Shown here: piece after piece, positions 561 through 13,359 of the stretch
Layout: each line of letters starts with the position of its first letter
Position numbering within the stretch: position 1 is the stretch's first letter
Source: Lineus longissimus
Taxonomy: Eukaryota > Nemertea > Pilidiophora > Heteronemertea > Lineidae
Reading direction: 5' to 3'
Assembly (NCBI RefSeq): GCF_910592395.1
Contig: NC_088326.1
Span: forward strand, 6,515,001 to 6,579,000
DNA length: 64,000 bases
Translations under genes and position numbers: made by a program
Notes under the pieces: model-generated
The model's database searches: none
What the model saw: the letters and a program-made list of their open reading frames with translations, nothing else
Told to the model about the DNA's origin: nothing

Positions 561-3465
561 ACCTTGTGTAATTGAAGTGTCGAATTCGCCTTGGTCGAAA
601 TGATAATACAGTAAATAAATCTATTGAATGTTGCTGAAAAGAAAACATTTACTACGTTAGAAGCCATATACATGATAACACCACCACCACCATTATCAAT
701 ATCATCACAAGTCAACTGGGGAATTTGTGTGATATTTGTTCAAAACTTGCGTATATGGTATTTGCAGGTCTATTGTATTGTAACATATTTTTCACTTTCA
801 AAATTAACTTTTTTACTAGAAATTATGAATCAATACTAACCGTAAGAAGCGTATGAAATTACAGAAGGCCTTCGTCGAAAAATGTAATGTACTTGAACTC
901 ATTCGTGTCATTAAACCTGAAAGCAGCACAGCATAACAGTGAAATTACCGTGACATCAATGGATGTCAAACTAACGTAGTGACGTGAATTTGAATTCGAA
1001 GTGCACAATTTCACAATTAAGGTTTTGAACACATTGAGAACTGAAAAACTTCATACAAATGCTTTCACACCAATGATATGATTGTGGCGCTCCTGATGAG
1101 GTATCGCCCTCTGCTAAGCAGCTTTGGTCGTAACCAGGGTAAATGTTTTTTTCAAGTGATATGAGCGATGCAATACCTTAGTTACCACCAGCGCCACGTA
1201 GCAGTCAATGAAGTTGTGCTGGTACCCCATTAACGTCATGCTTCAAATTTGAAGAAATTAATATTACCTTCATCAAGTACGTAATATTACACCAGGCCTT
1301 TGTCGAAAATGTAGATCTCGAAGTCTAACTGTAATGAAAGAAAACATCAATGTGACAATATGGTCTACTATTTATGAGGGGGAGAACGGGTATTTTCGGG
1401 ACACTGGGATGGGCCGAAAATAACTGTCGGGATTCGGGATAGACACCCTTATTTTAGCGGGATTCGAGACAAGCCGTGTTTTGCGTCACGATTCGGCTAA
1501 AATTGCATATTGGGAAACGGGATAAGCCTTTTTTCCTAACGGGACGTCGAGACAGTTACCACCCCCCCCCTTCCCCGTTCCCACCCTCATGACATGTAGC
1601 ATTGATTGTATTGTAGGCCTATTGTTACTCACAATCTATTTTTTTGTAATTGATACTGGTAGTATCAATGTGAAATATGCCACACGTTGGGAGCATGCAA
1701 GGCCTAGTACAATACACCATCATCACAATCAAATATTTCAATAATACACTGTCAACGAGAGTGAATGTTCAACCATCAATCACGTGCATTGTAGTGTAGC
1801 CTACTAGACCGGCAGCCCAGGGCCCTCGGGTTAGTTGAACTAGGTACATCCCCCATGACGGCTTGCGCCCCGCTGACACGACGAGCACATGGCTGAGCCA
1901 ATCCATCGCCTATACACTACTTTACAAAAATCGACACCTACTGAAACTTTCACTAATTATTCTCGGAAATGTACTTTATCGTTACATCAATAAATGCACA
2001 TTCGAATTTCAAAACTACCACTTATTTTTGCCGTGAAACTGACCTGAGTTATCGAAACACCGTCACTACGAAAAGAGGAAGAAGCAGGTCCGCATTTATC
2101 GAAATATTGCTAAATATAATTGTCAAAATGTCGACCAAATTACCAATTAAATCACAATAAACTTATCAAATGTTCACTCATGCCTTTGGGTCAAAAAATA
2201 CTGATTTTTCAATCATTCTCAATTTTACAAATCACCAATCACAAAAAGAAATAATGATGCAATTACCCAAAATAGATGAGATTTGACCACTGGTATAATT
2301 CCGCCATCTTGGATATCGGCATCGTCACCACCACTTCAAATTCTAAAGTCTTATTCAGGCCTAATATGTGTCACCTGCTGTGGTAAACTGGCTTGTTTTA
2401 TCAATAAACAAAATATGATCTTTGTAAATAAAATCGGAGATCTTCTGGTGTGTTTTTATGTGAATTTATTACGAACTATCAATGCAGCGCAGGGCAGCCA
2501 TCGTGTTCTCATGCGTAGTGGCGATGCGATAGCCATCCGCAGCACTGCTTTTCAAGATGGTGGCAATTGCCCAGTGCTAGAGGCGTTGTAAGGAAAATTG
2601 AGAACAGGCCCCTAATGAATGAACTCTCAACGATATCGATATATTTTCGTAATTCCAGCACAACTGTTCAACAATGAACGTCCACCGACAATCCCACTTA
2701 ACGAATATTAATATCAATTCATATTATGTATCTTAAAACGCTTTTATTTCATTTTGAAAAGAGTTATCGAGTGAACGATGACCTCCTACCGTACCCTAGA
2801 AATAAACAGCCAAAATGACCACAAAAACACCTTTTTAGAAAAAAACAGCGATTTTTCGAAATAAATGTCATCAGAGACGAAACTAGACACTAATTTAGCT
2901 AGGTATGCACAGTAATAGTACCTGAAGTGATCGATTTCAAGGAGAAAATACACTGAAAACAACTTTTCAGGAACAGAAATAAGATCACATTGTGAATAAT
3001 AGAACTAACAAATCATAGCCATTAAACAGCATAGTTAAGGTGTATAAGTAATTTTTTTCTGGGATGTATGTTAAAAAACTTTTTTTCGACCCTCAAAATT
3101 TGTATAGGTGGCGCCACCCATTTTTTGGGGGGTCGCGACATGTCGCGACTCATTTTTCATATGATCCAGCCTAATTTCTTTATTTCTCCATCGAATTTAT
3201 TGAAATTTTCAGCAAAAATCAGTATCTATAGGTCAAGTTACATGAGCAGAATGGTTTATTTTTGATTTTTCTTGAGTAATTAATGAAAATAAAGCTTCAA
3301 AAATTTTCTTGACCCCCTCCAGAAAACCCCCCCCCCCTACACCTCTTGAGGTCATAATTTAAAAAAATCAATTTCGCTCATGTAATTTGCAGCAATGTTA
3401 TAAACATTTTGACACATACTGAGCCCATTTCTAACAACATTTAAATTCTGTGGAGTAGATTGAAT
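561..3465. other. No recognisable gene; AT-rich intergenic sequence
   Basis: I find no protein family, RNA gene or well-formed splice structure here. The reading frames present are short and lack codon character. A GGGA/CGGGATTCGGG-rich patch at 1375-1570 ends in a poly-C run; a weaker relative of it lies at 15280-15350. A phrase like GGCCTTCGTCGAAAA at about 867 recurs with changes at about 1296. Confidence 0.55.
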
Positions 3466-7943: not shown

Positions 7944-8875
7944 TTATTTCTTAGTCTTTATCTTTTTGTTTTGTTTTTTACTTGGTGTACTATGACTATG
8001 ACTAGATGGATCCATCAAAAGGCTTATAGTGTCCTCCAGGGTTCGGATTCGCTTTCGATTTTCGGAATCTTGGTCCATTTCCTCCTCCGTTGTTTTTGTA
8101 TTCGTTTTTGCACTGGTCAATGGTTTCGTTTTTGCACTGGTCAATGGTTTATCCTCCTTGACCACTCCGGTTTGTTCTTTCGATTTTGCATCCGTTTCGT
8201 TTACTAATTCTCGTTTGTTTTTGTTTCCCGATACAGGTTCGTCAGTTTTAGCTGTTGCTGCTGAAGGGCCCTGGTGGTTTCCGGACTCTCTACAATGTCT
8301 TTTTAGATGACCTTTCCTACCGCAGATAAAACATTCCTGTGCCTGAGGGCATTCCGGTCCCTTGTGCCCCATCTGCTTGCAAATGTAGCAGGGACGGGGG
8401 TTGGGACATTTATTTGTGAAGTGAGATACAGACTTACATTTTTTGCATGGTTCGCGTTGCCCATCATAGTCTATTTTGATCTATACACCTCTCGCTACTT
8501 GTAATGTTTTGGGGATGTTCGCAGTGATACACATCTTTACCTCTATTTTCCCATTTAGAATTTTTGTTCCTTCATGACACTTACGTTCAATGTTCTTTAT
8601 TTCTCCAAATTGAGACAGTAATCTACAAACTAACTCGTTGCTTACTTGGCATGGAACGTCAGTTATGCACACTGATTTGATTGATCTGGTGTTTTGGTGT
8701 ATATCATAGCAGGGTACAACCTCGTCTCCAAGTTGTATCCCTTTTTCGAGTAAGTCCTTGAAAGTATTTTCATTGTTTAGCGTTACTATCCGAAAACCGT
8801 TTGGACGCTTCACCAGCTGCACAATGTTTTCCCTGTCCTCTATTGCAACAATCAAATCTGATGCGGATACCCATG
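7944..8875 (-). pseudogene. LINE ORF1: RRM-like region + three CCHC zinc knuckles
   Basis: This is the nucleic-acid-binding protein of the LINE, upstream of ORF2 on the same strand. About 8870-8490 encodes an RRM/gag-like segment. About 8450-8300 encodes three zinc knuckles in a row: CKKCKSVSHFTNKC, CYICKQMGHKGPEC and CFICGRKGHLKRHC, each with the C-x2-C-x4-H-x4-C spacing. A Lys/Thr/Ser-rich hydrophilic tail ends near 7944. An in-frame TAG lies between the RRM-like part and the first knuckle (near 8483), and an in-frame TGA at about 8877 separates it from the SGNH segment upstream. It is therefore broken. Three knuckles behind an RRM-like part is the arrangement I know from Tx1-type ORF1. Confidence 0.82.
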
Positions 8876-8879
8876 CGTT

Positions 8880-9094
8880 TCACGGTCTACACTTTAACGT
8901 ATTTTGCAGCTGAAGTTCATCAATGCATGGAGAACCCTCACCTTTTGGGGAGGATCCCCAACTCTTAACAAGTCTACGTGTACCTATATTCCTATCTATG
9001 TGAATTGTGTCCTCATAGACAGCATCGTCAACTTCTCCATTTTTAAGAGTAAAAGCAGACTCATTTTCGAGAAATAGCACTTTGTTCTGTTCAC
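8880..9094 (-). pseudogene. SGNH-hydrolase-like domain, C-terminal piece
   Basis: This frame carries the last conserved block of an SGNH/GDSL-type fold, with the Asp/His region appearing as YEDTIHIDRNIGTRRLV (compare the usual DGxHLNxxGTxxL). Read backwards across the insertion 9098-13046 it joins in frame with the piece at 13050-13302, sharing one copy of the ATA target duplication. It ends at an in-frame TGA (about 8877) directly before the RRM-like part of the LINE ORF1. It could be the N-terminal domain of that ORF1 or a separate upstream ORF. Confidence 0.72.
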
Positions 9095-9097
9095 ATA

Positions 9098-9231
9098 TAG
9101 TCCAGTCAATCTAGCTAAATTCTCACCAAACCCACCACTAATTGCAACAGAAACGAAACCTGTTGAAATGTGTTCATGTTCCTACCCTTGATAATATATC
9201 AAAAGTCCCATGAAGCATTTGGAGTGGAACA
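9098..9231. repeat. Left terminal inverted repeat of the nuclease-like element
   Basis: It begins TAGTCCAGTCAATCTA right after the ATA target duplication and ends near TTGGAGTGGAAC. It pairs with 12918-13046 with scattered mismatches and a few small gaps. Divergence between the two arms indicates an old insertion. Confidence 0.78.
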
Positions 9232-9615
9232 TTTTCTTTTTCGCAGTCGAAGATAGCATCATATAATCAATATTTTCGAAAGGTGTAGTATAAAAATGGC
9301 TGTTTCTCTGCCTGTGGTAAGGCTATCATCAAACTTCTGGTGTCTATACCTATGTTTATAGGGTCTATCCTCCACATGCAAGGGTTGTTTAAATGATGTA
9401 GGGGTTCCTTATGCCATTTGTGAGGGTTACCCTTCCCCTAAACCCCCTCATAGCGAAGTCCCGGAATTTTTGTGAAAACAAAAAAAATCAACAATTACAA
9501 TGATTGCTCCCTATTCGTCTGCATCAATAGATGACACCACTTTACAATGAATAGATTTCTGATTAGACAATATAATGATTGTCAAGATTTTAGCAGTTTC
9601 GCCAAATAATGTTAT

Positions 9616-12321
9616 ATGCAGATGGTTCACAAGGGGAACCACCCAGCCCAGGCATCAGTGATGTTTCTCCCAATGATTGACATGAATCCCAGCGACATGA
9701 CGTGTGTGAATACAACCCTTCATTTTGTTGCAGAACATGCCAGGCGTTATAGGGTAACACCAGCGCTTACTTTCGACCAGCCTTTATGGTGGAAGGCAAT
9801 GTCGATTGTTGAAGGTGCTCAAGAGGACAGTCCTCTGCATTCATTCATAAGACTAGGTGGGTTTCACACTCAGATGAGCTTCCTTGGTAGCATAGAACAC
9901 CTAATGTCTGGATCAGGTCTTCAGGATATTCTTGAAGTGATCTTTGCAGGAAACACAGTTTCTCACATAATCAGTTGAAAAGCTGTTGCGCGGGCCATCC
10001 GTGGTCACTTTCTTCTTGATTCAGTACTTCACTCACTTCTCCTGAGCAACATGTTTGACACAAAGTTGCATCCATCGAGTGACATTATTCCACAGGAGCT
10101 GGAAGTGATAGCGGACCTCAACCATGACCTGTGTTATGGCAATGCTACCCTGCTTGAAGTCGAATCTTCTGCTGATTTACAGACCCTACAAACGCAACTT
10201 GATACATATACAGCATCTCTCGAGTCAAAATCCAGCGCTCAACTATGGTTGAGCTAAATGGAAATGATAAACATCTTGATGGCTTTCATACGATCGGAAA
10301 GAACCGGAGATTGGGCGCTCAACCTCATAACACTACAAGAGAGATGCTACCATACTTGGCAGCAACTGATCATAACCTTTATACCAAATCCTTGTATGTG
10401 TACCTGGAGAAGATGATCAAGTTGGCAGACACCCATCCCAATGTTCACAGACAATTTACCCAGGGGCTGCATGTCGTCAGGAGGAGCGATCGGTTTTGGG
10501 CCGGGTTGTCTACCGACCTTATCATAGAGCAGGTGCTTATGAGGAGCCTGAAGACAAGTGGTGGACTCACGAGAGGGTATGACTGAAACCCAGCGACTTG
10601 TTTGGTGTGTCTCAAGACCAGCCTGCGCAGAGATGAACATTGCAATGCAGGAGCTAACATCAGTCAGCTACGAGACAAGTGAACAGCATAAGGACATGTC
10701 TCAAGCTCGACAAACAATGAACGCTGCTGATTCGGAGAAACTGATGGCCTTCATTGATTGGAGGTCGCCATTTGACACTGACTCCTCACTTCAAAATATA
10801 GTCAGTGGCATCGCAGCTGGACCAAAGGTTAACGTCGATCATGCAAAGGAGATTGGAGAGGCGATTGTTAATGGGATGGTCGGACAACCTGTGCTGAAGC
10901 ATTCTTTTAAGAGAAAAGCACAAGCTGTAACTTTTGACTCAAAGACTCAAAATAGGCGAAGACGAAGTTCAGATCGATCCTCTGCTTCTATTCCAAAGGC
11001 TTATCATCTGTGGAACGCAGACAGACAATCTGCCTAATGCTCTAACCTACGAACTCTGCCACTACCTCCCAGCATTGTTTGAATCTAAGGAAAAACTCCT
11101 AAAAGCTGTGAAACCACAACTAGCTGACGCTATCTGGTCTGAAATATCACAAGAACCATCACCAAGTCGGGACTTCAAATACATACTTGATGGAGGTGCC
11201 CTTCTTCATCGCATTCCATGGCAAGTTGGTGACACATATGGCAAGATACTACAAGACTACAACAAGTATGTGAAAAAGCATTATGGTCGGGCAGTTGTCG
11301 TAGGACAGCACACATCAGCGCCGAGCGGGATGTGAGGGCCGCAAAGTGACGTTCAATTCTTCCATGAAATTGCAACTGAAGAAGGCTGACTTTCTTTCCA
11401 ACCAAGAGAACAAGCAACGATTCCTTGATCTTTTGGGAGACACACTGGCTACGAGTGGATGTGAAATAGTCCATGCAGCAGGGGATGCGGATGTCATGAT
11501 TGTCCAAGCAGCAGTGAATGTTTCCGAAACCTGTGAAGCAGTGCTAGTGGAAGATGATACAGACTTGCTTGTTCTCCTTATTCATCTTGGTGATGGAAAC
11601 AAGCACAACATCTACTTCCGACCTGAACCAAAGAAAGGAGCGGCACTGAGGTGCATAGGGATTTACTCTATCAGACAGAAACTTGGAGAATGCATCTGTG
11701 AGAATATACTTTTTGCACATGCGTTCCTGGGATGCGACAGAACATCCAGGTTGTTTGGTATCGGAAAATCAGCTGGCTTAAAATTGTTAAAAGAAAACGA
11801 AACATTTCGTGCACAAGCCAAAGTTTTCAGAAATGCCAGGTCTTCCAAGGATCTTGTTATTGAAGCTGGAGAGAAAGCCATGACGATCGTACAGAAAGGA
11901 AAGCAGCATGACCACCTTAATACCATGAGACACCAGCGCTACCAGGAACTTGTCACCACCAGCAAAACAGCTGTCCATCCCAAACAGTTACCCCCAACAT
12001 CTGCAGCAACGAAATACCACAGCCTCAGAGTCTTTCATCGGGTTCAAGAGTGGCAGGGTAATACGCTTGATGCTGTAGATTGGGGCTGGAAGATATCGGA
12101 AGGGAGACTAAAACCAGTAATTTCGGACCTTGACCCAATCACTTCTCCTGCTTGTGCGATGTACCTGCAAGACAGGTTGTGGGACGCTACGCTGTGGCTG
12201 TCGCCGAAGTATGCCGCCACAGGAATGTACCACTGCATGTTCCGGATGTAGAGGAATTTGTCAAAACATGTCAAATAATGACTTGGACGATAAGGAAGAC
12301 AGTGGCAATGAAATAATGTGA
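9616..12321 (+). pseudogene. Decayed gene: XPG/PIN-nuclease-like core with a CRC-like Cys-rich tail
   Basis: I recognise this as a large uncharacterised protein family that is multi-copy in many invertebrates; its function is unknown to me. N-terminal blocks: VMFLPMIDMNP (about 9660), TFDQPLWWKA (about 9775) and LGGFHTQMSFLGSIEHLM (about 9855). Around 11460-11790 are HAAGDADVMIV, LVEDDTDLLVLL and HAFLGCDRTSRLFGIGK, whose paired acidic residues and following G-K helix resemble an XPG/FEN1- or PIN-type active site. The tail (about 12145-12270) has eight or more Cys in CTCKTGC...RCGC...CSGCRG order, like a tesmin/CRC metal-binding motif. Stops or frameshifts occur at about 9978, 10257, 10580, 11037, 11335 and 12200, and the family's N-terminal part seems missing. 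It lies wholly inside the inverted-repeat element. Confidence 0.72.
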
Positions 12322-12344
12322 TTTCACAAGTTCTTGCAACTATG

Positions 12345-12800
12345 GACCATATTCTGGAGTGTACTTTCGAGGGGGGGGGGGTACACCCTGAATTCGAGTA
12401 AAAGAAAATGCTTAAAGTAACTTTAGGTGCGTCGAAATGAAAGTTTTACCCAAGAAAAATTGGTAAAGATTCTTTGAGCACATTGAATAGCTGAGAATGT
12501 ATGGACATCTGTTATTCTGAGTTGTTACGCAATATGTTTGGGGTAGAGGTACCCCTATATAAGACCTAATGAATCAAGTGTCTGCCCTGTAAATACGTCC
12601 ATGTACAAGACGGTACCAGAAAACATGGGTAACGAAACCAAGATTGCTTGGAAATGATGTGTGGTTGTGAGGTTATGTGAATTAGTATCTTTGAGTTCTG
12701 ACGCAACAGGTGTGGGGTAGGGGTACCCATGAATATGTCATAAGGAATAATTCAACACCGATGTAAATACTTCGAAATGAAAGATTACCACAATTCACCC
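12345..12800. repeat. Subterminal ~190-bp repeats, right side of nuclease-like element
   Basis: Two diverged units follow the gene. Each contains a GTCGAAATGAAAG/TTCGAAATGAAAG block, a GAGTT-TGACGCAA-like block, GGGGTAG-GGTACCC and a GTAAATAC-TC block, roughly 180-190 bp apart (about 12430-12610 and 12610-12795). A run of 11 G follows at about 12371. Subterminal repeats are common transposase- or host-binding regions in DNA transposons, but no binding is shown here. Confidence 0.45.
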
Positions 12801-12917
12801 TGAAAAAATGTGTTTCTTCTGTCATTTGTTTCAAAAATGTGCCATGTTATGCCTTTTTCAATATTCTACACTTATGGAAAATGAGTTAAAACTGACCAAC
12901 ATTTTCCAACGAAATTC

Positions 12918-13046
12918 ACCATGTTCCACTCCAAGGACTTTATGGGACTTTTAGTATGTTATAAAGTACACCCATACCTATCAAATATGGGTGGTTTGGT
13001 TTCTGTTGCAATTGGTGGTGGGTCCTGCGGTATATTGACTGGACTA
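12918..13046. repeat. Right terminal inverted repeat of the nuclease-like element
   Basis: It begins near GTTCCACTCCAAGG and ends TATATTGACTGGACTA, directly before the ATA copy at 13047-13049. It is the reverse complement, with mismatches, of 9098-9231. Confidence 0.78.
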
Positions 13047-13049
13047 ATA

Positions 13050-13302
13050 CGATCTGCACAGTTTGGTTGACTTTGTGGGCATTTTCCACGAAAGTCTTAT
13101 CCAGTCTTGGCAGTATGCCAGATACAACTACCTGACATTCTGTGTTTTGTACGTCTGAACATTTCTTGTTTACCAGGTCAAAAAGTTCTTGGAAGTTCCC
13201 GGCAATTGTTACTGGTTGCTTATTGTCAATATCGTTTGATCCTGCTTGGATAATCAGTTTCTCAACGTTTTTCCATTCGTTTTCCTCAATATCCTCAACA
13301 GC
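13050..13302 (-). pseudogene. SGNH-hydrolase-like domain, central piece
   Basis: Minus-strand translation gives the central SGNH blocks: LIIQAGSNDI (the GxND block) followed about 40 residues later by VVVSGILPRLD and then a conserved N (VNQTV). SGNH esterase-like domains are known from ORF1 of several LINE groups. The piece is bounded by two insertions: the nuclease-like element ends at 13046, and the 1.1-kb repeat starts at 13303. Its frame is open throughout, so the insertions, not point decay, separated it from its neighbours. Confidence 0.75.
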
Positions 13303-13359
13303 CTTTTTAGCTCACCTCTTAGCAGAGGTGAGCTTATCCCATACCGTGGCGTCCGTCGT

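Follow-up and report, generated by a model that had tools for sequence, protein, structure and literature searches.

A truncated transposon copy with remnants of a DDE transposase and an XPG-like nuclease in the nemertean Lineus longissimus, probably of the Academ superfamily

Results

Element borders, terminal repeats and insertion site

The window analysed here, a stretch of 64,000 nucleotides from the genome of Lineus longissimus (RefSeq assembly GCF_910592395.1, contig NC_088326.1, positions 6,515,001 to 6,579,000 of the forward strand), contains a 3,949-bp element at positions 9098–13046 that is very probably a dead, 5'-deleted copy of a cut-and-paste transposon of the AcademX type within the Academ superfamily. 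The trinucleotide ATA at 9095–9097 is repeated identically at 13047–13049, representing the left and right target-site duplications (TSDs), and TAGTCCAGTCAAT, starting at 9098, is the exact inverted copy of ATTGACTGGACTA, which ends at 13046. Similarity between the terminal inverted repeats (TIRs) runs imperfectly to about 200 bp (left TIR, 9098–9300, plus strand, about 203 bp; right TIR, 12851–13046, minus strand, about 196 bp), with 141 of 212 gapped alignment columns identical and an alignment score of 107 compared with a best score of 37 among 20 shuffles. Across the host genome of 391 Mb there are 89 occurrences of the 13-base end motif, as against 11 of a reversed-letter control. Excision in silico of the element together with one ATA resulted in a single minus-strand frame of 159 amino acids (aa) spanning the junction, with which the neighbouring open reading frames (ORFs) of 132 and 178 aa share their frame; the borders are supported because this excision restores the interrupted target frame. 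A preliminary description of the locus had proposed a precisely bounded element with 3-bp duplications, which was confirmed, and TIRs of about 130 bp, which are present but longer and more degenerate than described.

The interrupted target (8481–9094 and 13050–13311, minus strand) appears to encode CCHC zinc knuckles together with an SGNH-like stretch, and its ORF looks like ORF1 of a retroelement. A run of CGT trinucleotides adjoins the element from about position 13351 and gives rise to long ORFs consisting of arginine runs.

Gene remnant in the window copy

Coding segments of the element were mapped by tblastn using a homologue of 1,443 aa (P0054) as the query. The element encodes residues 529–1437 of this protein, split over three frames; residues 1–528 have no counterpart in it. 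The remnant of a DDE transposase domain (residues 529–976) was located at 9613–10947 on the plus strand; it is frameshifted, keeps the regions of the second Asp and the Glu, and lacks that of the first Asp. On the same strand follow the start of an XPG-like nuclease domain, YILDGGALLH... (residues 978–1096; 10946–11302), and the remainder of that domain up to residue 1385 (11304–12137), the latter assigned by tblastn and from the fold of homologue P0107. Two blocks pointed out earlier as resembling a nuclease active site, EDDTDLLVLL (11550–11579, plus strand) and GCDRTSRLFGIGK (11730–11768, plus strand), are present within it. The Cys-rich tail of the preliminary description exists as a Tesmin/TSO1-like CXC domain (residues 1388–1437; 12136–12300, plus strand, element positions 3039–3203), a class assigned from CXC profile matches in homologues, but is read in a different frame from the core; its suggested DNA binding is plausible.

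The gene carries several frameshifts, and its first segment contains six stops when kept in one frame. The window copy is dead because residues 1–528 are missing and the frames are broken, and the gene between the TIRs is not intact; an intact host gene was rejected on the same grounds of truncation and breakage. A sibling copy of 4,013 bp (L011) is 93.8% identical to the window copy over the element, and its coding sequence begins at the same residue of P0054 (tblastn). In a tree of 33 rows, from which three rows with long branches (P0190, P0214 and P0220) were omitted, the window copy paired with P0054 and next with an intact copy from its own genome, with SH-aLRT values of 100 at both forks.

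Domain architecture of the full-length protein

Full-length relatives encode one protein of about 1,500 aa containing, in order, N-terminal zinc fingers, a winged-helix-like region, a DDE transposase domain into which a large helical segment is inserted, an XPG/EXO1/FEN1-type nuclease domain and a C-terminal CXC domain. The transposase domain has invariant D, D and E residues (equivalents of D440/D443, D596 and E859) at the strand, strand and helix places of the RNase H fold, and its topology is P-element-like, a match obtained with a second-look structure aligner at 10–11% identity. The apparent lack of a standard transposase at the locus was an artefact of truncation, the domain being present in full-length kin and as a remnant in the window. 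Structure comparison of homologue P0107 bore out the flap-endonuclease/PIN-like core, returning an XPG/EXO1/FEN1-type fold with 9–14% identity to Rad2/XPG family structures in the rows shown; the second-look list for this first model spans mainly residues 733–1073.

The preliminary description had suggested that the nuclease-like protein might itself be the mobility enzyme, that is, an XPG/PIN recombinase without DDE chemistry. The XPG active-site residues are indeed nearly invariant among 39 homologues, and Pfam returned nothing above the cut-off, and so no transposase, for the window pieces; a PDB search with a window piece alone likewise gave no match at E ≤ 1. This reading is nevertheless highly improbable and was rejected, given that in full-length copies the D-D-E-bearing domain lies upstream in the same protein, and that the part missing from the window copy is a truncation common to L011.

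The main Pfam match among homologues was DUF6589, which 10 of 29 gave at E ≤ 0.1. In P0089 this match overlaps the DDE region (residues ~430–905), which suggests that DUF6589, a domain of 'unknown function', may be a transposase catalytic domain.

Genomic copies and their target-site duplications

The family is strongly multiplied, as in the preliminary description: 126 protein matches were scored in the genome, some being pieces of one copy. Three loci have open frames of 1,524 aa, two have frames of 1,488 aa and one has a frame of 1,478 aa; among more distant matches, frames of 1,596 aa were seen at four loci, with two loci at 1,639 aa and a single one at 1,397 aa. An intact element of 5,922 bp (C4:13119332–13125253) has a single open frame of 1,524 codons that holds both the DDE and the XPG domain; counted from the first Met, its protein is 1,503 aa long. 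The three copies with 1,524-aa frames, each on a different contig, share 99.9–100% identity across the final 3,007 bp and carry different duplications (TCT, CTT and TAT), indicating recent movement. Two further full-length copies on contig 16 (L009, 5,778 bp; L010, 5,792 bp) are 98.9% identical, lie 0.4 Mb apart and have genes that are themselves broken; the 12 bases flanking them on the left are the same and those on the right nearly so. Because their flanks are alike, they were counted once among full-length kin, and the simplest reading of the pair is duplication of a chromosome segment rather than two insertions.

A distant sister family (L057, G000:C3:12741500–12748700) has the same architecture and an intact frame of 1,596 aa. 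Its score and frame length are found at four places, suggesting recent activity.

Both ends were recovered in 13 of the 15 coding copies tried, which had been picked by an exact end motif or an intact frame rather than drawn at random from the 126 matches, and all 13 had identical 3-bp flanks. For the first set of end sequences the TSDs were ATA (window copy), TAT (L011), AAT (L012) and TGT (L009 and L010), with CTT, TCT, TAT and CAG in further copies on C20, C4, C19 and C7, respectively, and TAA in a second copy on C4; a second subfamily, whose ends are TAGTAGGGTCAAT, had TTG, TTT and TTT. Chance does not explain these matches, as its expectation is about 1 in 64 per copy. The two other coding copies (C10:7059k and C20:8505k) yielded a single end only, and none of three non-coding pairs of short motifs (L013, L014 and L015) had matching 3-bp flanks.

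These data confirmed that other copies of the family lie between such TIRs, and they bear on whether a nuclease gene of the host, whole or in part, was captured as cargo between the TIRs of an unrelated transposon. XPG-type domains are common among host repair enzymes. We regard such capture as hardly credible, however, and rejected it, since the gene–TIR link recurs in all two-ended copies, across two end-sequence subfamilies with related TIRs and 3-bp duplications, and since the family is so strongly multiplied and has its XPG and DDE domains in one frame in the intact element.

Homologues in other animals

With the read-through protein of L010 as the query, 239 proteins were found at E ≤ 0.001; named matches among the 120 listed came from corals (Porites), gastropods (Littorina, Patella), bivalves (Mytilus, Mercenaria) and a sea cucumber (Holothuria). 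Residues 600–1500 of the sister family matched 102 proteins among the 7,986 candidates with most shared words, the named ones being from Capitella, coral, fishes and a sea spider. P0093 and P0105 were common to the listed L010 matches and those of the sister family. Source names among the homologues included 'Tesmin/TSO1-like CXC domain-containing protein' and '5'-3' exonuclease'.

In some database records among the matches of the sister family (P0156–P0159, P0176, P0178, P0179 and P0192) the family is fused to other proteins. Seven of these, all from the sea spider Nymphon striatum, involve ankyrin, USP16/45 or KRI1, and one fish record bears the name tdrd12; they may be either gene-model chimaeras or true fusions.

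Discussion

Probable assignment to the Academ superfamily

We take the nuclease of AcademX transposons to be of the XPG type. Academ is listed among the superfamilies with a DDD/E transposase (PMC9587614), and TSDs of 3 or 4 bp in AcademX and 9 or 10 bp in AcademH have been tied to their encoded nuclease and helicase (PMC10045372). Curated bivalve Academ elements average 5,565 bp, the superfamily being found mostly in bivalves, with a few ORFs in Capitella (PMC10294476). Nothing decisive came from PMC10799480, PMC9783078 and PMC9004415. As far as the consulted parts of these sources go, the family described here resembles AcademX in its 3-bp TSDs, in combining a DDD/E transposase domain with an element-encoded nuclease, and in its full-length copies of 5,778, 5,792 and 5,922 bp. 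The combination of DDE and XPG domains thus matches an already published transposon group, and what had been announced as a possible undescribed class is real but known in kind. The window copy differs from AcademX in being a truncated, non-autonomous derivative. AcademH belongs to the same superfamily but, in the same partial sources, has a helicase and TSDs of 9 or 10 bp in place of a nuclease and 3 bp; Pfam results for the homologues scanned contained no helicase family, and it is the nuclease fold that follows the DDE domain.

Several points weigh against this assignment. It was made from the described features of Academ elements; Foldseek alone, using a model that includes the DDE domain, gave none of its 235 PDB matches at E ≤ 0.001; the EXO1 match fell to E 0.38 with a broader alignment (A2); and Pfam scans returned no XPG family for the window pieces or the homologues scanned. 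An undescribed superfamily parallel to AcademX, in which the same domain plan was assembled independently, would be in line with a comparison made by description rather than reference sequence, with the predominance of DUF6589 in the Pfam results and with the absence of that term from the literature searched. We consider it unlikely: the present elements match Academ/AcademX, as covered by the consulted parts of the published accounts, in the lengths of TSD and element, in the class of transposase and in the accompanying nuclease, and one architecture is common to two deeply split lineages here.

Comparison with other systems

The transposases of the P element, hAT (Hermes) and Transib-RAG are not known to have XPG or CXC domains and are about 10% identical to the present family, and the TSD of P element and hAT is 8 bp, in contrast to 3 bp here. 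Members of the Rad2/XPG family (EXO1, FEN1 and XPG) are stand-alone repair enzymes, whereas the related domain here is part of a transposon protein, with nuclease activity predicted. KolobokE, KolobokP and KolobokD are also DDD/E transposons with an accessory nuclease, but according to the part of the source consulted, the nuclease belongs to the lambda-exonuclease-like, His-Me finger or DEDDh type and the Kolobok TSD is TTAA (PMC9587614).

Proposed mechanism and implications

The zinc fingers and CXC tail may help in TIR recognition, after which the DDE domain would cut the ends and join the 3' ends to the target with a 3-bp stagger. The stagger itself is evident from the duplications, and DDE chemistry is suggested by the fold and the invariant D-D-E residues. 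The XPG domain might cut a branched or flap intermediate, for example the non-transferred strand or 5' flaps at the joined ends. The window copy could not move itself because the region of the first Asp is missing; as it starts at the same residue as L011 and the two have different duplications, movement of both presumably depended on a full-length relative acting in trans. Somewhat speculatively, AcademX-type transposases might be two-nuclease machines, in which initial cleavage and strand transfer fall to the P-element-like DDE domain, and the fused XPG/FEN1-type domain makes an obligatory, structure-specific second cut, in the non-transferred strand or a flap, that shapes the 3-bp stagger. 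To our knowledge, and without a search having been made, an obligatory second structure-specific cut by a fused nuclease has been shown for no DDE transposase. The family's identification explains heavily multiplied, uncharacterised invertebrate proteins as transposases, and its near-identical, recently moved full-length copies provide material for testing the role of the fused XPG nuclease in transposition.
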